From Pontiella desulfatans (GTDB taxonomy: Bacteria; Verrucomicrobiota; Kiritimatiellia; Kiritimatiellales; Pontiellaceae): a DNA stretch of 64,000 bases. Of the stretch, positions 13,734-26,422 are shown piece by piece; the stretch's first letter is position 1, and each line of letters begins with the position of its first letter. The notes under the pieces are model-generated. The model worked only from the letters and a program-made list of their open reading frames with translations. It did no database searches and was not told the DNA's origin. A program made the position numbers and the translations under genes. The DNA lies in contig NZ_CAAHFG010000002.1 of NCBI RefSeq assembly GCF_900890425.1, forward strand, positions 1,054,001-1,118,000. The letters are read 5' to 3'.

Positions 13734-13772
13734 TACGATGCTCTACGCCGTCTTTTTTTGGAGTTATTTGGA

Positions 13773-15791
13773 ATGCTTGTAAAAATTTCACTTTCAATCT
13801 GTTTGCTGTTCAGCGCGACGATCGTGCACGCATCGATTCCATACAAAATCGGCTGGCACAAAGGCGCGGTGTTCCAGTCGCTGGAACCCGGCTATGCCGT
13901 GACGGCAAAGGATGGGTTTGCAATGACGCTCGTTCCAAAGGTTGGAAGCGAGTGGGACATGGCGCGCATCAGCGTGCTGGGGGTGGAGCTGAAGAATACC
14001 GGCTCCACCGAGCTGGTGCTCGATACGATGCTTTGCAACGACGGGGCGACCGATTGGTCGAACTCGTCGCAGGGGCGCACGATCATCAAACCGGGCGAAT
14101 CCATTCCGCTGGGCATCGCGCTGCGCCGCGACGCGGACTATGCCGGCACGGATCCTGCCTATCTGCGGATGTCGGGGAAGCCGAACGGCAACTTCCGCCA
14201 TTGGCATACGATTGATCCGAAAAACGTGAAGAGCCTGAAGATCACCTGTGCATCGATGGGTGAACACGCCTTCGAACTCGGTACCATGTTTGCTCTGCAA
14301 AGCATGGACGAATCGAAGTTGGGGGTTTTCCCGATCCTCGACGGGTTCGGGCAATATGCGTTGAAGGAGTGGCCGGACAAGGTTGCCTCCGAAGAGCAAC
14401 TCAAGGCCGGGATCGAAGTGGAAGAAAAACTGATGGCGGCGCTGGGGGTTCCAGCAGGATTTTCGAAATACGGGGGCTGGAAAGGCGGAGAGCGGTTTGA
14501 GGCAACGGGGTTTTTCCGCACGCAACAGCATGGGGGCCGCTGGTGGTTCGTCGATCCCGAAGGGTATCTGTTCTGGTCGGCCGGCGCCAACTGCATGGGG
14601 GTCGAGTATTCCGGCCAGACGCCCACGGAACGCAATCTGGCGGTCTTTGGCCAACTCCCCGCGAAAGATGATCCCGTTTATGGAAAATTCCACACGCTCA
14701 TCGATGTGGAGGACAACTATCAGCTGCGCGAAAAGGTTCCGCACTACGACTTCACCCGTGCAAACCTGTTTCGTAAATACGGCGCAGGCTGGGAGGATCG
14801 GCAGATCAGTCAAGACCTTGCGCGGATGAAATATTGCGGCATCAACACGATCGGCGCGTGGTCGGACAACGCCCTTGCCCGGAAGAAGCAGGTTCCCTAC
14901 ACCGTGATGCTCCACTATGAATATGCCTTCGCCGCCGAAAAACTTCCCGATCCATTCAACCCCGAAACGCGCGACGGGCTGCGCAAGGCGATCAAGGAAT
15001 ACCCGGTCGATTTCAAAAACGATCCGTGGTGCCTGGGCGCATTCGTGAACAACGAGCTGCACTGGAACAATAATGCGAGGCACATGGTGGCCGGCATCTT
15101 CAGCCACAATGAGGAGGGCACGGAAGTGAAGAAGGTCTTTGCCCAATGGCTGGAAGAAAAATATGGGACGGTCGCTGCGTTCAATGCCGCCTGGAAAACC
15201 AGCTTCCAATCGCTGGAGGATTTGCTGGGCGTGAACAACAAGGCCGCATTCAACAACGCGAACCCCAAGGATTGCGACGAGCTCGCGTTCCTGATGGCCG
15301 ATGCCTTTTTCGGGATGGTGAAGGACGAGCTTCAGCGGCACTCGCCGAACATTCTCTATCTGGGAAGCCGCATGAATTCCGGCAGTCAGCCGGTCATTCG
15401 CGCGGCGGCGAAGCATGTGGACGTCCTCAGCGCCAATATTTATTCCTACAAACCGAACGCCGGGCACTTCGGCGGTGCGGGCAAGCCGGTGCTGATTTCC
15501 GAATTCCACTATGCCAACGTTTCTGGCAATAATCTCGGTTGCGGACTACGCAGCGCGCAGGATGCCGTGCAGCAGGGGCGGCTCTACAGGGCGTTCGTGG
15601 CCGAGGCGGTCAACCATCCGCAGATCATCGGCGCGCACTGGTTCCAGTGGCGCGACCAGAATGCGGCCGGCCGCTACGACGGAGAAAACTATGATGTCGG
15701 TTTCTTCGATATTGCGGATCTACCGAACGAAGACCTGATCCGCGCGGCAGCGGACGCAGGCAGGAACCTTTACGATAACCTGAACGAATGA
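13773..15791 (+). CDS. Secreted GH50 beta-agarase-like glycoside hydrolase
   Basis: 672 residues. ATG 13773 follows GGAG by 9 bases and opens a signal peptide (MLVKISLSICLLFSATIVHAS). The N-terminal ~200 residues form a beta-sandwich of the type preceding GH50 barrels; then comes ATGFFRTQQHGGRWWFVDPEGYLFW, a hallmark entrance to the GH50/GH42-like barrel. Expected acid/base is E428 (VNNELHW) and nucleophile E577 (ISEFHY). GH50 members characterised so far are beta-agarases that release neoagarobiose, but the family here is assigned from motifs only. It is a paralog of the minus-strand gene at 21500-23542. Next to it is a sugar symporter, so import of the released oligosaccharide is a reasonable idea. 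Confidence 0.8.
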   Translation: MLVKISLSICLLFSATIVHASIPYKIGWHKGAVFQSLEPGYAVTAKDGFAMTLVPKVGSEWDMARISVLGVELKNTGSTELVLDTMLCNDGATDWSNSSQGRTIIKPGESIPLGIALRRDADYAGTDPAYLRMSGKPNGNFRHWHTIDPKNVKSLKITCASMGEHAFELGTMFALQSMDESKLGVFPILDGFGQYALKEWPDKVASEEQLKAGIEVEEKLMAALGVPAGFSKYGGWKGGERFEATGFFRTQQHGGRWWFVDPEGYLFWSAGANCMGVEYSGQTPTERNLAVFGQLPAKDDPVYGKFHTLIDVEDNYQLREKVPHYDFTRANLFRKYGAGWEDRQISQDLARMKYCGINTIGAWSDNALARKKQVPYTVMLHYEYAFAAEKLPDPFNPETRDGLRKAIKEYPVDFKNDPWCLGAFVNNELHWNNNARHMVAGIFSHNEEGTEVKKVFAQWLEEKYGTVAAFNAAWKTSFQSLEDLLGVNNKAAFNNANPKDCDELAFLMADAFFGMVKDELQRHSPNILYLGSRMNSGSQPVIRAAAKHVDVLSANIYSYKPNAGHFGGAGKPVLISEFHYANVSGNNLGCGLRSAQDAVQQGRLYRAFVAEAVNHPQIIGAHWFQWRDQNAAGRYDGENYDVGFFDIADLPNEDLIRAAADAGRNLYDNLNE

Positions 15792-15887: not shown

Positions 15888-15911
15888 ATAAACATGATGA
15901 AGGCAAATAGC

Positions 15912-18092
15912 ATGAGTGAAAAAAAAGAAGGCAAGCTGAGCTTTAAGGAAAAGTTTTCGGTCGGTACCGGCGGCTTTACCGTGGGGCTCGGTAATCAGAG
16001 TGTCCGCACCACCGGGCAGGCTGTGCTGAACATGATTCTTGGGATCAATGCTTTTTGGGTCGGGGTGGTGCTGGCCATTCCGCTGCTATGGGATGCGCTT
16101 ACCGATCCGATCATGGGGAACATTTCCGACAATTTTAAATCAAAGTATGGCCGCCGCCGCCCATTCATCTTCCTCGGCGCGATCCTGATGGGCCTGAGCT
16201 TTGCAAGCATCTGGCTGATTCCGATGGGGTGGAGCGATGCCGGCAAGCTGGCCTGGTTCCTCACCACCAGTTTGCTCTTCTATACCTCATACACCATCTT
16301 CTCGGTGCCGTTCATCGCGCTGACCTACGAAATGACCCCGGACTATGACGAGCGCACCGCCGTGCAGGGATTCGTCACCTTCTGGAACCGCCTGTCGGAA
16401 ATGACCTACATGGGGTTGATCCCGCTTTCGCTCACCTTCATTGCCTGGAAATACGGCTATTCCGATACCGGCGATCTGATCAACCCGGAAAAGATGGAGG
16501 GCATCCGCATTTCCGCCGCCATCTACGGTGGAATCGGCATGATCCTGCTCGGCATGCTGCCGGCCTTCTTCGCCAGGGAACGGCTCTACGACGTGAACGT
16601 GAAGGAGCACAAGGGGAAAAAGGATCCCTTCTGGCAGTCGGCGAAGACAACGCTTCAGAACAAGGCCTTTGCCATTTTGTGTTCGCTGGCCGTTTTCACC
16701 ATTATTGCCGGTGTGTTCGCCGCCAACATGGATTGGTATCTGTTGATTTTCTATCTGTCCGACGGCGACGTGGCGCTCGGTACGCAGTGGAAACTGATCG
16801 TGACGGTTGGCTATGCCGTTGTGGGCATTGTCGGTATTCCCATCATCGTCTGGCTCACCGGAAAAATGACAAAGATCCATGGGTTCATGTTCATCTACGG
16901 CATGATGGTGCTGAATGCGGTCATGCGCTGGTTCGTCTATCGTCCCGGTCGCTTCGAAGGCGAACTGGTGTGGAAAACCCTTCCCGAGGCAGGAGCCTCC
17001 CTGGCACTGGTCGGCAAATCCCTCATCTGGCTCGATCCACTGACCGGCGGCATGTTCTGGATCGGGGTCGGCGTGCTGGGGCAGTCGCTGATTGCGGACG
17101 TCTGCGACGACGATGAGCTGAAGAACGGCCACCGCCGCGAGGGCATGTTCGGCGCGATCTATGGTTGGGCCATGAAAGCCTCGTTTGCCCTCAGCTTTGT
17201 TTTGATCGGGCTTTTCCTGGAAGGCATCGGTTTCGATCCGCAGTGGGGCTCCACCCGCTGGATGAGCGTGAATGCCAAGGCGGAAAACTATGCGGCGTGC
17301 AAAGCCGATTTTGCCATTGCGGATGATGATTTTGTTGCCGTCGAAGAAGCGCCTGCTGAAGAAAAAGAGCCTGTGGTTGCTGAGAATACGCTCAGCCTGG
17401 AACTGAAGCAGGCGCAGATCAGCGAGACCGACGGAATAAGCAAAGCGGTGCTCACCCGCGCCGGAACCTCCGGCGAGATGGAAGTTTTGGTGAAGAGCAG
17501 CCCGAAGGCGATTGCGGAAGTGCCGCAGTCGGTTGTCATTCCCGACGGTGAAAACAGCGTGGAATTTTCGGTTGAAGCGATCAACGACGGCAAGGCGCGC
17601 GGTGTCCAGACGACAACCATCACGGCCTGGGTCAAGGGGGGCGTTCCGGTGCGCTCCTCTGTTTCGGTGATCGACGATGACGGGCCGGCACTGGCGATTA
17701 CATTGGATGGATATGAAATCAGCGAAAACGGCGGCGAGCTGTCCGCGACGCTCACGCGCTACGGCACGACCGAAGGCGCTGCAACGGTGGCACTGGAAGG
17801 CTTCTGCAGCTCGGTGAAGAAAAAGGATATGGCCGCCACGGTGACCATTCCGGAAACAGTAACCATTCCGGCGGGCGAAGAGCGTGTCGCGTTCAAGATT
17901 GCCGCGGTGGACAACGACCGCGCGGACGGACAGCAGAGCGAACAGACCTTTTTCCGCATGCGCCTGGCCATGTGCATCGGCGCGGCCGGCCCGGCGCTGC
18001 TTTGTTTTGTCCTGCTGGGCTTCTATCCGCTCAACAAGAAAACGGCGGAGGAAAACCGGCGTAAGCTCGAAGAGCTGCGTAGTCATCATTAA
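15912..18092 (+). CDS. GPH/MFS sugar-cation symporter with two periplasmic Calx-beta-like domains inserted
   Basis: 726 residues from ATG 15912 (GAAGG 8 bases upstream; in-frame ATGs at 15894/15897 are alternatives). Residues 1-465 show the glycoside-pentoside-hexuronide symporter pattern: eleven hydrophobic helices, LWDALTDPIMGNISD and KYGRRRPFIFLGA in the N-half. Residues ~465-676 do not fit: an acidic linker (VEEAPAEEKEPVV) leads to two Calx-beta-like repeats (~491-590 and ~591-676), each with ISE(T/N)(D/G)G, a repeating TLTRxGT/VLTRAGT strand and, for the first, the closing VSVIDDDGPA. Helix 12 then follows (MCIGAAGPALLCFVLLGFYPL). With a cytoplasmic N-terminus, the insert would lie in the periplasm between helices 11 and 12. 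Downstream GH43 and GH112 enzymes lack signal peptides, so this probably imports their substrate. Confidence 0.85.
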   Translation: MSEKKEGKLSFKEKFSVGTGGFTVGLGNQSVRTTGQAVLNMILGINAFWVGVVLAIPLLWDALTDPIMGNISDNFKSKYGRRRPFIFLGAILMGLSFASIWLIPMGWSDAGKLAWFLTTSLLFYTSYTIFSVPFIALTYEMTPDYDERTAVQGFVTFWNRLSEMTYMGLIPLSLTFIAWKYGYSDTGDLINPEKMEGIRISAAIYGGIGMILLGMLPAFFARERLYDVNVKEHKGKKDPFWQSAKTTLQNKAFAILCSLAVFTIIAGVFAANMDWYLLIFYLSDGDVALGTQWKLIVTVGYAVVGIVGIPIIVWLTGKMTKIHGFMFIYGMMVLNAVMRWFVYRPGRFEGELVWKTLPEAGASLALVGKSLIWLDPLTGGMFWIGVGVLGQSLIADVCDDDELKNGHRREGMFGAIYGWAMKASFALSFVLIGLFLEGIGFDPQWGSTRWMSVNAKAENYAACKADFAIADDDFVAVEEAPAEEKEPVVAENTLSLELKQAQISETDGISKAVLTRAGTSGEMEVLVKSSPKAIAEVPQSVVIPDGENSVEFSVEAINDGKARGVQTTTITAWVKGGVPVRSSVSVIDDDGPALAITLDGYEISENGGELSATLTRYGTTEGAATVALEGFCSSVKKKDMAATVTIPETVTIPAGEERVAFKIAAVDNDRADGQQSEQTFFRMRLAMCIGAAGPALLCFVLLGFYPLNKKTAEENRRKLEELRSHH

Positions 18093-18109: not shown

Positions 18110-19204
18110 ATGAACCTAAACACATTTGAACCGGGCAAGGAATGGCCCGACAACAATGGAATGGCAATCAACGCCCACGGCGGCGGCATTCTGTTGCACG
18201 AAGGAACCTATTACTGGTACGGGGAGCATAAGATTGAGGGGGAAGCCGGCAACCGCGCACACGTCGGCGTCCACTGCTATGCTTCGACCGATCTGTATAA
18301 CTGGAGAGATGAGGGGATCGCCCTCGCGGTTTCCGACGAGCCGGGGCATGACATAGAAAAAGACTGCATTCTCGAGCGGCCGAAGGTGGTTTTTAATACG
18401 TCGACCGGAAAGTTTGTGATGTGGTTCCATCTGGAGAAAAAGGGCTGTAGTTACGACCATGCCGGCAGCGGCGTTGCTGTCGCGGATTGCCCGACCGGTC
18501 CATTTGAATATCGCCATTCATTCCGTCCCAATGCCGGGGCCTACCCCCGGAACGATTGCGAAAAACTGCACCGGCCCGGCCTGGTGGACGGCGGCTTTAC
18601 CGGCGATACGCCGCAGCCCCGCATCAATGTGGCGAAGAGCAATGTTTTTGCACGCGATCTGGAAGGCGGCCAGATGGCACGCGATATGACCCTGTTTGTC
18701 GATGACGACGGAACCGCTTATCAGATTTATTCATCGGAAGAAAACAGCACGCTGCACATCTCGCAGTTGAGCGATGACTACCTTCACTCGGCAGGAAATT
18801 TTATCCGTGTTTTTGAAAACCGCTATATGGAAGCGCCCGCCATTTTTAAGCGCGACGGCTACTACTATCTCATTGCCAGCGGCTGCACCAGCTGGGACCC
18901 GAACGCGGCGCGCTGCGCTATTGCAGACAACATCATGGGGCCGTGGCATGAGTGGGAAAATCCCTGCCGGGGTGTGAATCCGCAAAATGGCTTCGGTCCG
19001 GATAAAACCTTCGGGGGGCAGAGCACCTTTGTCCTTCCTGTACAGGGAATGGATGATGCCTTCATTGCCCTGTTCGATATCTGGCGGCCGGAGAATGCCA
19101 TTGACGGACGTTATATCTGGCTACCGATTGAATTTAACGCAGACCGCAGTTTTAACATCCACTGGAACGATGCCTGGGATCTATCCATTTTTAAACAAGC
19201 TTAG
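18110..19204 (+). CDS. GH43-family glycosidase, exo-beta-1,3-galactanase-like, cytoplasmic
   Basis: 364 residues, no signal peptide. The start of the protein has INAHGGGILLHEGTYYWYGE, which is typical of the GH43 subfamily that contains exo-beta-1,3-galactanases. Other beta-propeller strands are ILERPKVVFN, RDMTLFVDDDGTAYQIYSS, and YMEAPAIFKRDGYYYLIASG (the Glu of EAP is the usual acid). It lies 17 bases after the symporter and 10 bases before the GH112 gene, so all three look like one operon. Because it is cytoplasmic it should act on imported short oligosaccharides, not polymer. The galactosyl preference is inferred from family resemblance and from the GH112 neighbour; other GH43 specificities remain possible. 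Confidence 0.8.
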   Translation: MNLNTFEPGKEWPDNNGMAINAHGGGILLHEGTYYWYGEHKIEGEAGNRAHVGVHCYASTDLYNWRDEGIALAVSDEPGHDIEKDCILERPKVVFNTSTGKFVMWFHLEKKGCSYDHAGSGVAVADCPTGPFEYRHSFRPNAGAYPRNDCEKLHRPGLVDGGFTGDTPQPRINVAKSNVFARDLEGGQMARDMTLFVDDDGTAYQIYSSEENSTLHISQLSDDYLHSAGNFIRVFENRYMEAPAIFKRDGYYYLIASGCTSWDPNAARCAIADNIMGPWHEWENPCRGVNPQNGFGPDKTFGGQSTFVLPVQGMDDAFIALFDIWRPENAIDGRYIWLPIEFNADRSFNIHWNDAWDLSIFKQA

Positions 19205-19214
19205 GAGCAAAAAT

Positions 19215-21398
19215 ATGTCAGAAAAAATTCATGCAGGAAAAGGGGGGTTCACCCTGCCGGCCCAGGCCGGGATGGATGATGTGGTATTGGATCTGGCCCA
19301 GCGCTGGGGTGCGGATGCCTTCCGCGATTCCGATGGAACGGAGCTTTCCGAGTCCATTACGGAACTGGGCTACGACATCTATTCGACCCTCTGCCTGATT
19401 CGCGCCGACCAGGAGTGGAACAACGCCCATCCGGAAGACCACCAGCAAAAGTTTCTCTACTCCACGCCGCAGACCGCACGCGCCGATACGATGGAGATCG
19501 AGATCATGGCGCGCTACTCGAAAGAGCAGTATCGCATCGATGAGATCAACGACTGCAAGAAATATTGGGAAGTGGTCAACCGCACCACGGGAGAAGTGGT
19601 TCCCGTTTCCGATTGGGACTATGCCGAAGGTGTCGTGACCGTGCGCAACTGCGCCAAGTGGAATGTCTACAGCGTCAACTTCCTCGTCTACCAGATATGG
19701 GAAACCACCTCGATGTACAACCACATCACCAACAACTGGGGCGACAAACCGCACCAGTCCGGCATCGACCCGCGGAAAAAGGAAACGCGCGAACATATTT
19801 ATCAGTTTCTCGTTAAGTGGCTCGAAACCCATCCCAACACGGACTGGGTTCGCTTCACTTCCATGGCCTACCAGTTCCCGATCATCACCAACCCGAAATC
19901 GGAAACCCTCTATCAGGACTGGTATGGCTATCTCGACTGCATGTCGGCCCAGGCGCTGGACGAGTTCGAAGAAAAGAAGGGCTACCGCCTGCGCCCGAAC
20001 GACATTGTTGACAACGGCTACTTTAACTCCACCGACCGCGTACCCACGAAAGCCTATCTCGATTGGATCGAATTCGTGCACGAGTTCATGGTCGAATTCA
20101 CCAAGCAGTGTGTGAAGCAGGTGCACGACGCCGGCAAGAAGGCCGTCATGTTCTATTGCGACCATTGGATTGGCACGGAACCCTACAAACCGGCATTCCA
20201 GGAAATCGGCATGGACGGAATCATCGGCCCCTGCATCAACGGCCGCGAAGTGCGCCGTGTCGCCGACGTACCGGGCGGGATGCTCAAAGAGCTGCGCCTC
20301 TATCCCTACTTCTTTGAAGTCGATCTCATGGGCGAGCCCACCTTCAAGGAGGGCGGCGACCCGGTGCGCGACTGCAAAAAATACTGGATGTGGATCCGCC
20401 GTGCGATGCTCCGCAAGCTGGTGCACCGCATTGGCTATGGCGGCTATCTTGACCTCGCGATCAAGTTTCCCGACTTTGTCGATTACCTCGAATACCAGAC
20501 GAAGGAATACTACGCGCTCTGCGAAAACTCGCAGTTTACGCCGGCTGAAGCGCCGCTCAAAGTGGGGATTCTCAACGCCTGGGGAGCTCACCGCTCCTGG
20601 GGCTACGACGTCACCTGGCCGCTCGGCAGCATTACCGAATCGCTCTCCGGCCAGCCGTTCGATGTGGAGTGGATCTGCTTCGATGATATCCGCGGCGGTG
20701 TGCCGGAACGGTTCGACGTCATTATTAACTATGGCTATGCGGGCACCTCCTGGAGCGGTGGCGAAAACTGGACGGATCCGCGTGTCGTCTTCGCCATCCG
20801 CGAGTTTGTCGACAGCGGCGGCGGTTTGGTTGGCGTGTTCGACCCAACCTCGCACGAAAACGGCGGCACCTTCTACCAGCTGTGGGACATTCTCGGCGTG
20901 CAGAAGGAATATGGCCTCTCCGGCGACTGCAAGAAGGTCATCCCGACCGACATCGCGCAAGGGCACTTCATCGCCGCCGACCTCGCATCCACGAAGCCGG
21001 CACTCGGCAAACATGTGCAGACCATCTATCCGTGCATCGAATCGACGCAGATCATCGCCAAGGACGATGAGGGTAGCGTAACCATCGCCGCCAACGATTT
21101 CGGTAAAGGCCGCGGCGTCTACCTCGCCGGCTTTGAACTGGGCGCCGAGCAGAACCGCCTGCTGCAACGCGCCATCTGGTTTGCCGCCGGCCGCGAAGGC
21201 GAAATGGAAAAACGCTGGTTCGCCTCGAACATCGAAACCGAGATCGCCGCCTATCCCGAAACCGGGAAATACATCGTCATCAACAACTCCAACGATCCGC
21301 AAACCACCACGGTTGTGGATGGGGAAGGTCGCGCAAAAACGGTCGAACTCGATGCCAATGCATCCGCGTGGTTCGACTTTGAAGGCAACGAAATCTAA
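19215..21398 (+). CDS. GH112 galactosyl-N-acetylhexosamine (or galactosyl-rhamnose) phosphorylase
   Basis: 727 residues. ATG 19215 has AGGAG 7 bases upstream. The whole length matches the lacto-N-biose phosphorylase plan: N-terminal barrel with WGADAFRDSDGTELS near residue 35, DWDYAEG, NHITNNWGDKPHQ, FYCDHWIGTEPYKP (region of the catalytic acid Asp), EGGDPV, then a glutamine-amidotransferase-like middle domain and a small C-terminal beta domain. GH112 enzymes use phosphate to split a beta-galactosyl disaccharide into galactose-1-phosphate plus GlcNAc, GalNAc or L-rhamnose. No signal peptide, so it is cytoplasmic. It ends the symporter-GH43 operon and is followed by a terminator. The acceptor sugar cannot be told from sequence alone. 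Confidence 0.9.
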   Translation: MSEKIHAGKGGFTLPAQAGMDDVVLDLAQRWGADAFRDSDGTELSESITELGYDIYSTLCLIRADQEWNNAHPEDHQQKFLYSTPQTARADTMEIEIMARYSKEQYRIDEINDCKKYWEVVNRTTGEVVPVSDWDYAEGVVTVRNCAKWNVYSVNFLVYQIWETTSMYNHITNNWGDKPHQSGIDPRKKETREHIYQFLVKWLETHPNTDWVRFTSMAYQFPIITNPKSETLYQDWYGYLDCMSAQALDEFEEKKGYRLRPNDIVDNGYFNSTDRVPTKAYLDWIEFVHEFMVEFTKQCVKQVHDAGKKAVMFYCDHWIGTEPYKPAFQEIGMDGIIGPCINGREVRRVADVPGGMLKELRLYPYFFEVDLMGEPTFKEGGDPVRDCKKYWMWIRRAMLRKLVHRIGYGGYLDLAIKFPDFVDYLEYQTKEYYALCENSQFTPAEAPLKVGILNAWGAHRSWGYDVTWPLGSITESLSGQPFDVEWICFDDIRGGVPERFDVIINYGYAGTSWSGGENWTDPRVVFAIREFVDSGGGLVGVFDPTSHENGGTFYQLWDILGVQKEYGLSGDCKKVIPTDIAQGHFIAADLASTKPALGKHVQTIYPCIESTQIIAKDDEGSVTIAANDFGKGRGVYLAGFELGAEQNRLLQRAIWFAAGREGEMEKRWFASNIETEIAAYPETGKYIVINNSNDPQTTTVVDGEGRAKTVELDANASAWFDFEGNEI

Positions 21399-21499: not shown

Positions 21500-23542
21500 T
21501 TAGCGCCAGAGCTTTTCGAGCACGGTCAGCACGTCGTGGTCTTCGGTGCCGAAGGTATACAGGTGCTCGGCGAGGATGCGGCTGGCAGCGGTGATTTCGG
21601 GGTAGGGGGTGTCGGTGACATCCACGAACCCGATCTGGAAGTTTTCGCCGGGACGCCCGGCGGCGGATTGGTCGGAATAGGCAAACCAGTGCGTGCCCAC
21701 CACGTTGGGATGGAGGACGCCGGCGACCACATAGGCGGCATAGGCGCGGCTGCGCTGGAGCTGGTCGGCAACCGGCCAAAGTCCAACGCCGGGAACGCCG
21801 CGGTCGGGCGCGCCGAAGTGGAATTCGGAATCGATGCAGGGTTTGTCGATGCCTTGGGGAACCTTGGCGCCGGAGAGCGGTTCATAACTATTGAGGCTGA
21901 GCACATCCACCTGCTTGATGGCTTGGGCAACGATTTCGGCGGGGACGTTGTGCATGCGGGAACCGAGGTAGAGATGGTTCGGCAAGGCCGCTCGCATGGC
22001 GGATCGGCAGGTCTTGTAGTAGGCTTCGGCAATCATGCCGCGCAGGTTGAGGATGTCGGCCTCCGCCGGTTCCGATTGTCCCGGGGCGGGAACTTCCTTG
22101 ATGTTGTTCCAGTCGGTGTAGTCCGTGCCCCAGGCCGCGTTGAGTTTTCCGATGGTTGAATAGTTTGTTTGCAGTCGTTCAATGCAGGCCGTGCGGGCGG
22201 GAAGCCAGTCGATCTTGAACGCTTCGCGCACGAATTTATGGGTCCAGGCGATTTCGTTGTCGATAAAGACGCCGATGCAGAAGGAGTCGTCCGGATCGAC
22301 CAAAGAGCGGAGCTTTTTTTCTAGCTTGTGCTGGAAGCCCGGTGCATAGGGATCCGAAATGCCCTCGCCGAGCGGGTTCCATGTTCCGCCATAATGCAGC
22401 ATCGCGGTGTAGGGGGTTCGTTTGCTGCGGGAGAGATCGGCATCGGCCCATGCGCCCAGCGTATTCAGGCCCCAGGAGCGCATCCGTTTATGCAGGCGGT
22501 CGGCGGCCGGGCGAGTCCAGTCGGAGCCGAAGGTGCGCTCGAGATTGGCCTCGATGAACCGGATCCTGCCTTTGCCATCGATGGCCGGGATGGACTCGAA
22601 CATCGCCTTCCGGTCGCTCGCCGGGGTGGACTGCCCGAATCCGACACTGTTGACGCCGTGGGAAAAGAAGAGCTTGCCGTCCGGATCAACCAGCCACCAT
22701 TTCCCATCGACCTTTTCGGTGCGGAAGAACCCGGTGGCTTTGCGTTGGGGGCCGTTGATCCACCCGCCATAGGGGTTGAATGCCGCCGGGCCCGAATCGA
22801 GTTCCAGCCGTTGGCGTTCGACTTCGTTGCGTTTTGCGAGGTCTTCCAGACGGTGGAGTTTTCCGGGCCAGTCCAGCTGGCGTACCTGGCCGAAGGCATC
22901 GAGGTAGGGGAGTTCCATCAGGGCGGCGTTGGCTTTGGCCCCATAGGGCTGCGCCAGGCTGACGGTGATGTTGTCCAGTGAAAGGGTTTGCGTGGAGGAG
23001 TGGATCTGTAAACGGCAGGCGCTGATTTTCGCCGGATCGAACGGTTTCCAGTGGGAGCGGTAGCCGTTGGGTTTCCCATACATTCCATCGAAAATTTCAG
23101 GAGCGTCGTCTACGTCGGCCGCCCGGGGGAAGGGAAAGCCGAGGGTGGCGCGCTCGCCGGGCATAATGAATGCCTCGCTCGGTGTGCTGTTGTGCCAGTC
23201 CTGTGCGCCTTTATTGTCCAGGCGGCCCTTGATCCAAACCAGGCCGGAACCGCTGTTCTCGATATCGACCCGGAAGTAGCTGAACCCGGATGCATTCCAG
23301 GTGCCGTTTCCGGGCCGGAGCACAACCGTGCCGCTTTTTTGCGGTAGATTCCCCGAAATCCGGAAGGTCGAGTTTTCTTCTTTTGAGAACTCGATTCCCC
23401 TCGGCGGGGAGCAGGTTACCAAGGAAAGGGTTTCGACCGGCTTCAGAAGGGTCTCCGTCGTAATGGATTTAGCTGCGGGTGAAAATCCGGAAAAACCAAT
23501 GAAGGCTACCCAGGAGAGTCGTTGTGCTGTTTTGAAGTACAT
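21500..23542 (-). CDS. Secreted GH50 beta-agarase-like glycoside hydrolase (second copy)
   Basis: 680 residues, read leftward from 23542. Signal peptide MYFKTAQRLSWVAFIGFSGFSPAA. An N-terminal beta-sandwich (~30-230) is followed by ATGFFRTEKVDGKWWLVDPDGKLFF, the same barrel entrance as in the 13773 gene, but overall similarity is moderate, so they are old paralogs. Expected acid/base E430 (FIDNEIAW) and nucleophile E573 (DSEFHF). Characterised GH50 enzymes are beta-agarases. The gene is divergent from the aldehyde dehydrogenase operon at 23802, and the 259-base gap may hold shared control. The ribosome site is weak. Secretion to the periplasm or outside is expected. Confidence 0.8.
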   Translation of the reverse strand: MYFKTAQRLSWVAFIGFSGFSPAAKSITTETLLKPVETLSLVTCSPPRGIEFSKEENSTFRISGNLPQKSGTVVLRPGNGTWNASGFSYFRVDIENSGSGLVWIKGRLDNKGAQDWHNSTPSEAFIMPGERATLGFPFPRAADVDDAPEIFDGMYGKPNGYRSHWKPFDPAKISACRLQIHSSTQTLSLDNITVSLAQPYGAKANAALMELPYLDAFGQVRQLDWPGKLHRLEDLAKRNEVERQRLELDSGPAAFNPYGGWINGPQRKATGFFRTEKVDGKWWLVDPDGKLFFSHGVNSVGFGQSTPASDRKAMFESIPAIDGKGRIRFIEANLERTFGSDWTRPAADRLHKRMRSWGLNTLGAWADADLSRSKRTPYTAMLHYGGTWNPLGEGISDPYAPGFQHKLEKKLRSLVDPDDSFCIGVFIDNEIAWTHKFVREAFKIDWLPARTACIERLQTNYSTIGKLNAAWGTDYTDWNNIKEVPAPGQSEPAEADILNLRGMIAEAYYKTCRSAMRAALPNHLYLGSRMHNVPAEIVAQAIKQVDVLSLNSYEPLSGAKVPQGIDKPCIDSEFHFGAPDRGVPGVGLWPVADQLQRSRAYAAYVVAGVLHPNVVGTHWFAYSDQSAAGRPGENFQIGFVDVTDTPYPEITAASRILAEHLYTFGTEDHDVLTVLEKLWR

Positions 23543-23801
23543 GAATTTATATGCCCATTAAGAGGTCGCCCTATCGTCAGGTCTTCCGCCTGGTAGTCTA
23601 CATAAACTATGGTGGAACCTTGGAGATTCCTGACGCACTAAAACAGGGGAAAGCCTTGAGCGGTTGCGAACAGGCTTAAAGGCTCACTCGATAGCTGGGG
23701 TTTTTGATTCGCAAAACATCTCACATTGCGCGCATAATACGCATATACAACCGGTCGGTAGGCCGGTAGCTTGTTGCGATATCAATGACGGAGGATTTGT
23801 G
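23543..23801. promoter_or_regulatory. Divergent intergenic region between GH50 gene and sugar-acid operon
   Basis: 259 bases without a gene. It should contain promoters for both directions. A short inverted repeat ACCGG-N8-CCGGT at 23750-23767 lies 34 bases before the downstream ATG and is a possible operator for the XylR-type regulator at 28501, but this is only a guess. GGAGG at 23790-23794 is the ribosome site of the 23802 gene. I could not place confident -35/-10 boxes. Confidence 0.4.
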
Positions 23802-25244
23802 ATGAAGGAGTATAGGCAGTTTATCGATGGCCAGTGGATGGTTTCGCATTCCGGCAAGACCGATACGGTGATCAATCCCGCGACAGAGGAGCAGATCGGC
23901 ACCGTGCAGGATGGCGACGAGGTGGATGTTCAGCTGGCGCTGGAAGCCGCCGAGCGGGCGCAGAAGGCGTGGGGCCGCAAGCCGCCGCGCCAGCGGGCCG
24001 AGATCATGCGCGCATTTGCCAATGAGATTCGGGCGAATCGCGAACGGCTGGCCGAGCTGCTGGTGCGGGAGCAGGGCAAGCTGATCGGGGTGGCGGGCAT
24101 GGAGGTGGATGTTACGGCATCCTTCATCGATTATGCCTGCGACTGGGCGCGCCAGCTGGAGGGGTCGATTGTTCCATCGGACAATGAAAAGGAACATATT
24201 TGGATACACTCCATTCCACGCGGTGTGGTGGTTGGCATCACGGCCTGGAATTTTCCGCTGGCGCTGGCGGGGCGTAAGATTGGCCCGGCGCTGGTGGCCG
24301 GCAACGCCATGGTGGTCAAGCCGCCGCCGGACACGCCGCTGGCCACGCTGGAGCTCGGCGATCTGGCCAACAAGGCCGGCATTCCGAAGGGCGTCTTGAA
24401 CATTATCACCGGTCCGGGCAAGGAAGTCGGCGGTGCGTTGGTTGCAAACCCCATCACGAAGATGGTCACCATGACCGGCAGCACGCCGGTTGGGCAGGCC
24501 ATCGTGGAAAACAGTGCCAAGAACCTGGCGCACGTCCAGTTGGAGCTCGGCGGCAAGGCGCCGTTCCTGGTGCTGGAAGACGCCAACCTGGAAGCCGCCG
24601 CCAAGGCGGCGCTGCATTCGCGGTTCGATAACTGCGGGCAGGTTTGCACCTGCAACGAGCGTCTGTATGTCCACGAAAAGGTCTACGACGAATTCATGGC
24701 CATCTTCATGCCGATGGTGAAGGCGCTGAAGGTGGGCGACCCGATGGATCCCGCATCCGACCTGGGGCCGAAGATGAATGCGCGCGAGCTGCAAAACATG
24801 AAGGACCTGGTGCAGACCACCCTCGAAGAAGGCGCCACGCTGCTCTGCGGCGGCAAGGTGCCGGAAGGCGAACTGTTCCAGAAGGGGTTCTGGTTCGAGC
24901 CGACCATCTTTACCGACGTGACGCAGGGGATGACCCTTGTGCACAAGGAAATATTCGGCCCCATTCTGCCGGTGATCAAGTTCAGCTCCACCGAGCAGGC
25001 GATCGAATTCGCCAACGACTGCGAATATGGGTTGGCGGCGATGGTCTTCACCGAAGACATGAAGACCGTGATGCGCCTGACCGATGAACTCGATTGCGGC
25101 GAAATATACATCAACCGCGGCCATGGCGAGCAGCACCAGGGCTTCCACAACGGATTCAAAATGAGCGGAACCGGCGGGGAGGATGGCCGCCACGGCCTCA
25201 GCCAATACCTGGAAAAGAAAACGTTCTACGTGAACTACAACTAA
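23802..25244 (+). CDS. Aldehyde dehydrogenase, AldA-like; candidate 3,6-anhydro-L-galactose dehydrogenase
   Basis: 480 residues from ATG 23802, set by GGAGG 7 bases upstream. It is a full NAD(P)-dependent aldehyde dehydrogenase: Rossmann part with GITAWNFPLALAGRKIGPAL, general base E248 in LELGGKAP, and nucleophile C282 in NCGQVCTCNERLYVH, the exact style of E. coli lactaldehyde dehydrogenase AldA. The enzyme oxidises an aldehyde to an acid. Family knowledge allows lactaldehyde or 3,6-anhydro-L-galactose as substrate; the dehydrogenase that starts anhydrogalactose use in agarolytic bacteria belongs to this superfamily. The next gene is an enolase-superfamily enzyme, then two dehydrogenases, which favours the anhydrogalactose reading, as does the divergent GH50 gene. 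Substrate remains inference. Confidence 0.85.
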   Translation: MKEYRQFIDGQWMVSHSGKTDTVINPATEEQIGTVQDGDEVDVQLALEAAERAQKAWGRKPPRQRAEIMRAFANEIRANRERLAELLVREQGKLIGVAGMEVDVTASFIDYACDWARQLEGSIVPSDNEKEHIWIHSIPRGVVVGITAWNFPLALAGRKIGPALVAGNAMVVKPPPDTPLATLELGDLANKAGIPKGVLNIITGPGKEVGGALVANPITKMVTMTGSTPVGQAIVENSAKNLAHVQLELGGKAPFLVLEDANLEAAAKAALHSRFDNCGQVCTCNERLYVHEKVYDEFMAIFMPMVKALKVGDPMDPASDLGPKMNARELQNMKDLVQTTLEEGATLLCGGKVPEGELFQKGFWFEPTIFTDVTQGMTLVHKEIFGPILPVIKFSSTEQAIEFANDCEYGLAAMVFTEDMKTVMRLTDELDCGEIYINRGHGEQHQGFHNGFKMSGTGGEDGRHGLSQYLEKKTFYVNYN

Positions 25245-25251
25245 GAAAGGC

Positions 25252-25322
25252 ACCACGAAATACACGAAATACACGAAAATCCGGATGAAGGGAGATTTAG
25301 TGTATTTCGTGTTTTTCGTGGT
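25252..25322. repeat. Long imperfect inverted repeat built of ACACGAAAT-like units
   Basis: Left arm starts ACCACGAAATACACGAAATA with further ACACGAAA; the right arm reads ATTTCGTGTTTTTCGTGGT. They pair over about 24 bases around a GC-mixed centre. It fills most of the 89-base spacer between the aldehyde dehydrogenase and the enolase-superfamily gene and would form a strong mRNA hairpin. Confidence 0.75.
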
Positions 25323-25333
25323 TCAAAAGAGTC

Positions 25334-26422
25334 ATGAGCAAAATCAAAACCATCGCCACCCGGCTGTTCGAGGTTCCGCTGGCCGAGGTGCTGTCGGACG
25401 CCAAGCATGGCGACCACCACTATTTCGAGCTGGTCACGGCAACCGTCACGCTCGAAGACGGTAGCCAGGGCACCGGCTACACCTATACCGGCGGCAAGGG
25501 CGGCCATGCCATCAAGGCCATGATCGAGCACGACCTCGCGCCGGTACTCGTGGGCAAGGACGGAACGGCCATTGCCGAAATCTACGATTTCATGGAATGG
25601 CACATCCACTATGTCGGTCGCGGCGGCATTGCCTCGTTCGCCATTTCCGCCATCGACATAGCGCTGTGGGACATCAAGGGCAAGCAGTCCGGCGAGCCGC
25701 TCTGGAAAATGGCGGGCGGCGCGGACAGCAGCTGCCGCGCCTATTGCGGCGGCATCGACCTCATGTTCCCGCTCGAAAAACTGCTCAACAACATCCGCGG
25801 CTATCTAGCCGCCGGGTTTGATGGCGTGAAGATTAAGATCGGCCGCGAAAACCTCGACGAGGATATCGAACGCATTGCCGCCGTCCGCGAGCTGATCGGC
25901 CCCGACATCACCTTCATGGTCGATGCCAACTATTCGATGAGCGTCGAGAAGGCGATCGAAGCGGCGAAGCGGTTCGCGCCATACGACATCACCTGGTTCG
26001 AGGAGCCGACCATCCCGGACGACTATGCCGGGTATGCCAGGATTGCCGACGCCACCGGCATGCCGCTGGCGATGGGCGAAAACCTGCACACCATCCACGA
26101 GTTTGGCTATGCGTTCGACCAGGCCAAGCTTTCGTTCATCCAGCCCGATGCCTCCAACTGCGGCGGCGTGAGCGGCTGGCTGGCGGCGGCGGAACTTTCG
26201 GAAAAACATAACATTCCGGTCTGTTCGCACGGTATGCAGGAGCTGCACGTCAGCCTGGTTTCGGCGCGGCCGAACGCGGGGTGGATCGAGGTGCACAGCT
26301 TCCCGATCGATGAATACACCAAGCGTCCGCTGGTGGTCGAAAACCATCGCGCCATCGCGCCGGACACGCCGGGCACCGGCGTCGAGTTCGACTGGAATGC
26401 CCTCAAACCCTATGAGGTTTGA
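25334..26422 (+). CDS. Enolase-superfamily (MR subgroup) enzyme; candidate 3,6-anhydro-L-galactonate cycloisomerase
   Basis: 362 residues. An N-terminal capping domain is followed by a (beta/alpha)7 barrel. The KxK motif is K166/K168 (VKIKIG), metal ligands are D197 (MVDAN), E223 (FEEPT) and E249 (GENLH), and H299 (CSHGMQE) sits where the MR subgroup keeps its second base. Such enzymes abstract a proton alpha to a carboxylate and dehydrate or cycloisomerise sugar acids. Length and context match the cycloisomerase that opens 3,6-anhydro-L-galactonate to 2-keto-3-deoxy-L-galactonate. Alternatives are another acid-sugar dehydratase such as for fuconate or galactonate. It lacks a signal peptide, and the ATG is 11 bases downstream of a large inverted repeat. 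Confidence 0.85.

Follow-up and report, generated by a model that had tools for sequence, protein, structure and literature searches.

Soluble domains are rare within the fold of secondary transporters. The synaptic vesicle proteins SV2A, SV2B and SV2C are MFS proteins in which a luminal loop, between TM7 and TM8, carries a beta-rich domain, a pentapeptide beta-helix. The best-known pair of domains on the outside of a transporter is mammalian. PepT1 and PepT2 (SLC15, POT family) are MFS transporters in which an outside loop contains a tandem pair of Ig-like domains; these are dispensable for transport and bind trypsin near the pore (PMC4597091, PMC8565842). Here, we describe a predicted bacterial sugar importer that carries a comparable module, which seems to have been kept through a transfer between phyla. 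The gene is located in a window of 64,000 nucleotides (the whole stretch of DNA that was analysed) of Pontiella desulfatans.

The symporter of Pontiella resembles PepT1 and PepT2 in being an MFS protein whose C-terminal bundle carries a beta-sandwich pair in one of its outside loops. The mammalian proteins, however, belong to another MFS family with another substrate, carry domains of unrelated origin in the loop TM9-TM10, and have trypsin as their partner, whereas the Pontiella symporter is bacterial, uses loop 11-12, and has a second sandwich that is probably split around the first. Given that it belongs to the GPH family and not to the POT family, and that the insertion is between TM11 and TM12 and not between TM9 and TM10, the likeness to PepT is one of analogy only. 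The SV2 proteins were also matched by fold to the transporter part but do not have a CalX-like fold. The Na+/Ca2+ exchangers are likewise transporters in which one loop carries two CalX-like domains; they are, however, non-MFS proteins, the loop is cytosolic, and the sequence relation of their domains to the insert is remote only. MelB, the prototype of the GPH family, has the whole TM1-TM12 fold in common with the Pontiella symporter but lacks the ~231 residues inserted in its periplasmic loop 11-12. Giant bacterial proteins contain tandem CalX-like repeats of the same sequence family as the insert, but these form long in-phase arrays in proteins of ~1000-8000 residues, whereas the insert is a two-period out-of-phase slice within a transporter. 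The literature searched, in which few subscription journals were covered, yielded no description of an MFS symporter with CalX-like domains. The preliminary description, which knew of no such fusion, is therefore borne out for GPH symporters in that literature, but not for MFS transporters in general, since PepT1 and PepT2 have an outside domain pair.

The symporter and its gene neighborhood

The open reading frame (15894-18092, forward strand) encodes 732 amino acids; the start given previously, 15912, is an in-frame ATG downstream of the start of this frame. Residues 24-448 match the Pfam family MFS_2 with 197.4 bits (gathering score of 27; E 3.9e-58). Against TIGR00792, the narrow NCBIfam gph model, the symporter scores 122.2 bits, which is below the curated cut-off of 231.35 and places it in the broader MFS_2 family. 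An AF2 model (mean pLDDT 68.7), for which ten relatives were aligned, was superposed on MelB (9old) using VIA-align, with Z 39.4 over 449 residues at 2.9 A, where residues 14..732 of the model fall on residues 2..454 of the chain. The superposition reaches residue 732 of the model, which indicates that TM12 of this transporter is the helix that follows the insert. Moreover, residues 681-732 are 72% identical to the C-terminal end of an insert-free paralogue from the same genome. The protein is thus predicted from its sequence to be a cation-coupled GPH (MFS_2/MelB-like) sugar importer. The genome of Pontiella (8.7 Mb) contains about 20 full-length GPH symporter paralogues.

The features of the locus are listed in Table 1. 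Both of the best PDB matches of the GH50 gene are beta-agarases, and a sulfatase is also found among the neighbors of the transporter gene. The presence of GH50, GH112, and 3,6-anhydro-L-galactonate cycloisomerase as neighbors identifies the locus as a predicted agar/galactan catabolic cluster, in which an agarase is combined with a GH112 phosphorylase. For the latter, the listed frame opens at 18987, but translation probably starts near 19212. A second GH50-like protein is encoded on the reverse strand (21500-23542); it has only about 31% identity to the GH50 of the planctomycete locus L081 described below, and 55-58% identity to parts of large GH50 proteins encoded beside the insert-free transporters of L083-L085.

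Table 1. Features of the symporter gene and of its neighbors (positions in the window)
Feature	Residues	Position	Strand	Evidence
GH50 beta-agarase-like enzyme, signal-peptide-like N-terminus		13758..15791	+	PDB 5z6p, E 2.1e-67; 4bq2, E 2.8e-64
GPH/MFS_2 symporter, TM1-TM11	1-449	15894..17240	+	Pfam MFS_2; AF2 helices; VIA-align to MelB
Insert part 1: two strands, F-G end of CalX-like repeat	450-484	17241..17345	+	Profile positions 65-88
Insert linker, Ala/Pro/Glu rich	485-497	17346..17384	+	Alignment; missing from tandem arrays
Insert part 2, D1: one complete CalX-like beta-sandwich repeat	498-597	17385..17684	+	Profile positions 11-88
Insert part 3, D2: strands A-E of second repeat	598-680	17685..17933	+	Profile match ends at 66
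Symporter TM12 and cytoplasmic tail	681-732	17934..18089	+	Alignments with insert-free proteins
GH43 enzyme		18110..19204	+	Pfam GH43; PDB 6eug, E 1.5e-119
GH112 galactosyl-HexNAc phosphorylase		18987..21398	+	Pfam Lact_bio_phlase; TIGR02336, 808.9 bits (cut-off 560.3)
Aldehyde dehydrogenase and 3,6-anhydro-L-galactonate cycloisomerase		23664..26422	+	Aldedh; PDB 5xd7, E 1.8e-194

Position of the insert and its occurrence in other genomes

The symporter contains ~231 extra residues between helices 11 and 12, from residue 450 to about 680 (nt 17241-17933). A paralogue from the same genome (G000:C3:948657-950141, 81% identity) has almost nothing between residues 449 and ~681. In MelB, Pro398 is located on the periplasmic loop11-12 (PMC8437787), and by MelB topology the insert would be on the periplasmic side of the membrane. 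Both the superposition on MelB and the topology of its loop agree with the proposed in-frame insertion into a periplasmic loop, the one that joins helices 11 and 12.

A scan of 84,980 species genomes revealed eight close relatives of the symporter (L081-L088), with 66-83% identity over the best segment. The insert is absent in six of these, L085 ends before the site, and L081 contains the insert. This last locus is from a planctomycete MAG (Sedimentisphaerales), and its insert has the same boundaries, with the flanks GFDP/QWGSTR ... DGQQ/ (slashes mark the boundaries). The same insertion is thus found in another MFS_2 protein, from an independent assembly and from another phylum. A third transporter with the insert was found neither in the 29 genomes of the family, nor in 387 genomes of the own phylum, 392 genomes of the planctomycete phylum, or the 161 genomes of the planctomycete order. 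The other matches of the insert searches were repeats, mostly within very long proteins. Viral contigs searched for the transporter and for the repeats gave no match.

Since the insert is known from only two of the genomes searched, an assembly or sequencing error that fused the transporter gene to a piece of a repeat protein had to be considered. However, the frame is open across both junctions, the closest repeat in the same genome is only about 34% identical, and an independent MAG of another phylum has the same insert with the same junctions. This leaves the artefact with a negligible probability, and the earlier worry that two genes had been mis-joined is unfounded, given that L081 shares both insert and flanks. 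An assembly join is thus ruled out as the origin of the insert, as is a recent copy of a repeat from the same genome, where the closest matches have about 34% identity.

Constraint on the insert and probable transfer between phyla

The symporters of Pontiella and L081 share 87% identity in the core and 47% in the insert. Codon comparison of the two inserts gave a dN of 0.50 and a dS of about 3, which is saturated, while the dN of the core is 0.084. With dN far below the saturated dS, the insert is shown to be under purifying selection, with a weaker constraint than the core.

In a tree of the transporters from which the inserts were removed, the symporters of Pontiella and L081 form one clade (support 97/98). 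The GH112 tree, in contrast, groups L081 with another Sedimentisphaerales MAG (100/100) and the Pontiella enzyme with its own genus (93/93). The rpoA gene of L081, located on the same contig about 3.7 kb from the transporter, has 78% identity to its counterpart in a Sedimentisphaerales relative and 53% identity to the one in the Pontiella genome. The inserted transporters therefore form one clade across two phyla, a grouping not found for GH112 and rpoA; this is indicative of gene transfer. It seems that the insert-bearing transporter gene passed from one phylum to another separately from its neighbors.

Repeat architecture of the insert

An iterated profile search collected 38 repeats of ~100 residues each; they lie in very large proteins encoded by the Pontiella genome and by related ones. 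The profile has 88 positions and was seeded with the D1 of the Pontiella symporter and the D1 of L081, so that the independent weight lies with the 36 repeats of other proteins, in the first round. Against this profile, D1 scores 62.7 bits in Pontiella and 66.8 bits in L081, where it spans positions 1-88. In the AF2 model, D1 forms a full sandwich, with strands within residues 499-593 and pLDDT mostly of 56-85. D2 lacks the last two strands: the profile match ends at position 66-67 in both inserts, and the modeled strands (599-672) are followed by TM12. At the other end of the insert, the AF2 model places two strands in part 1 (455-463 and 466-475) with low confidence. In both inserts, the first ~30 residues match positions 65-88 of the profile. 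This match is weak in bits but specific, since its score was reached by in-register shuffles in 0 of 5000 cases for Pontiella and 13 of 5000 for L081. The linker that follows the first segment has about 13-18 residues in the two inserts.

The insert is an out-of-phase slice, two periods long, that is cut at the same E-F turn at both ends. The two Calx-beta-like repeats previously described are therefore approximately correct as a count of periods, but just one period is a full repeat; the other is divided, with one piece at each end of the insert. The F-G hairpin probably completes the A-E half of D2, and in this arrangement, read from the order of the segments, the ends of the insert would meet above the membrane. 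The confidence of the AF2 model is low for the F-G segment and D2 (block means 26-69), a model of the L081 insert on its own was poor (pLDDT 43), and the closure of the split sandwich is not visible in any usable model. A PDB search with the full model returned MFS folds only and is thus silent on the fold of the insert. A disulfide between C469 and C638 of the insert was considered and rejected, because the two cysteines are at opposite poles by the assumed strand order and both are missing in L081. With its ends probably meeting in this way, the slice is a clear example of the insertion of a piece of a repeat array into a tight loop.

Relation to Calx-beta domains

The Pfam Calx-beta family (PF03160) matched neither of the inserts nor the tandem homologues tried, up to E 10. 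There are four PF03160 places in the genome of Pontiella. The repeat profile matches one of these, L115 (PF03160 28.1 bits), in register over positions 4-88 with E 1.8e-9, and also matches the protein of another, L116, with 1.3e-5 for the best stretch. By sequence, the insert is therefore CalX-like through a remote relation via an intermediate, and not a Pfam Calx-beta domain. The Calx-beta label given previously is justified as remote kinship through L115, but not as membership of PF03160. Other Pfam and NCBIfam names for the insert (DUF5006, CopC) were sub-threshold noise only.

The Calx-beta domains of Na+/Ca2+ exchangers carry calcium ligands, and as a pair they regulate these transporters. 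The ligands expected of a Calx-beta domain are DY, DD..E..E, and a terminal DDD. The insert could, by analogy, be a calcium-responsive regulatory module, a role that would agree with the kinship through L115, with a marginal phmmer match to a Na/Ca exchange protein (E 0.032), and with the acidic DDD motif at the D1-D2 junction, which is kept in the symporters of both Pontiella and L081. This is, however, in contrast with the location of the insert, which is periplasmic and not cytosolic, with the lack of a match to PF03160, and with the ligands themselves, where inspection of the sequence finds DDD but neither DY nor E..E. A calcium-responsive role is consequently very improbable, and the calcium-binding module of the preliminary description is doubtful given that the usual DY and E..E ligands are missing.

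Proposed role of the insert

We favor a reading in which a slice of a tandem CalX-like array, two periods long, entered the periplasmic loop 11-12 in an ancestor of the symporter. As the slice starts and stops at the E-F turn, the N-terminal F-G hairpin would complete the C-terminal A-E half-sandwich. The closed sandwich would bring both ends of the insert to one place, above helices 11 and 12, from which the complete D1 would project as an outward arm. In the least certain step, this arm would stay outside the transport cycle and serve as a docking pad, keeping a partner from the periplasm close to the pore; most simply, the partner would be the GH50 enzyme encoded in the same locus, or the polysaccharide on which that enzyme acts. 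Both insert-bearing loci have a GH50 gene next to the transporter, and PepT1 and PepT2 provide a precedent. By this analogy, a pad on which GH50 or another periplasmic partner docks is the leading explanation, although its probability is still somewhat short of even.

The GH50 gene beside the transporter is kept in L081, L082, and L086. The gene order in L081 is GH50, transporter, GH42, GH112, and GH29, and in the insert-free L082, L083, L084, L086, and L066, GH50-like, GH42, and GH112 genes are found with the transporter. Because the insert-free relatives keep largely the same neighbors, the insert is accessory and not required for the locus, and a docking role, if any, would be optional. These insert-free sister genes provide ready-made controls for what such appendages do, by simple deletion.

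The agarolytic surroundings, with GH50 and a 3,6-anhydro-L-galactonate cycloisomerase, would also suit a carbohydrate-binding module, as suggested in the preliminary description, in which the sandwiches bind the agar oligosaccharides released by GH50 and raise their local concentration; the homologous repeats of very large proteins in the same and related genomes point in the same direction. The insert, however, matches no CBM family and has few aromatic residues (11 of 232), and the insert-free relatives occupy the same type of locus, which makes this role improbable.

The helix 11-12 loop as an insertion site

Among 43 GPH loci, which were fetched by rank alone and include the Pontiella symporter, loop 11-12 is longer by about 50 residues or more in 8; targeted loci add further extended loops. 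The extensions are apparently unrelated helical or repetitive inserts, which would be expected if the loop tolerates foreign segments and the CalX-like slice is a harmless passenger that folds with its ends together and has no dedicated function. The much faster change of the insert than of the core (47% versus 87% identity) and the occurrence of the same neighbors around the insert-free relatives are also in line with a passenger. On the other hand, the frame, the boundaries, the fold motifs, and the insert as a whole have outlasted the saturation of dS and a transfer across phyla. A passenger is therefore rather unlikely, but it comes second to the docking pad and is followed by sugar capture and then by a calcium response.

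The varied inserts of loop 11-12 would be expected of a site that tolerates foreign segments, and also of a general plug-in site. A broader proposal, to which we give a fairly low probability, is that in these bacteria the loop is a general plug-in site for periplasmic modules and that, in the clade of Pontiella and L081, the circularly closed CalX-like pair docks the periplasmic agarase or agar at the mouth of the importer, as an independently evolved bacterial counterpart of the extracellular domain of PepT1 and PepT2.

Inserts of ~50-250 residues are found in loop 11-12 in the genome of Pontiella (L010, L014, L016, L017) and in relatives (L039, L043-L045, L047-L056). They are helical, coiled-coil-like, or internally repeated, and look unrelated to the CalX-like insert. 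Two examples are among the targeted loci: L045 (G021:C4:80000-86000) contains a GPH frame of 746 amino acids with an internally repeated, helical-looking insert of ~250 residues, while in the GPH frame of 590 amino acids of L056 (G006:C188) the loop contains short degenerate repeats (VGFV/KGFV units).
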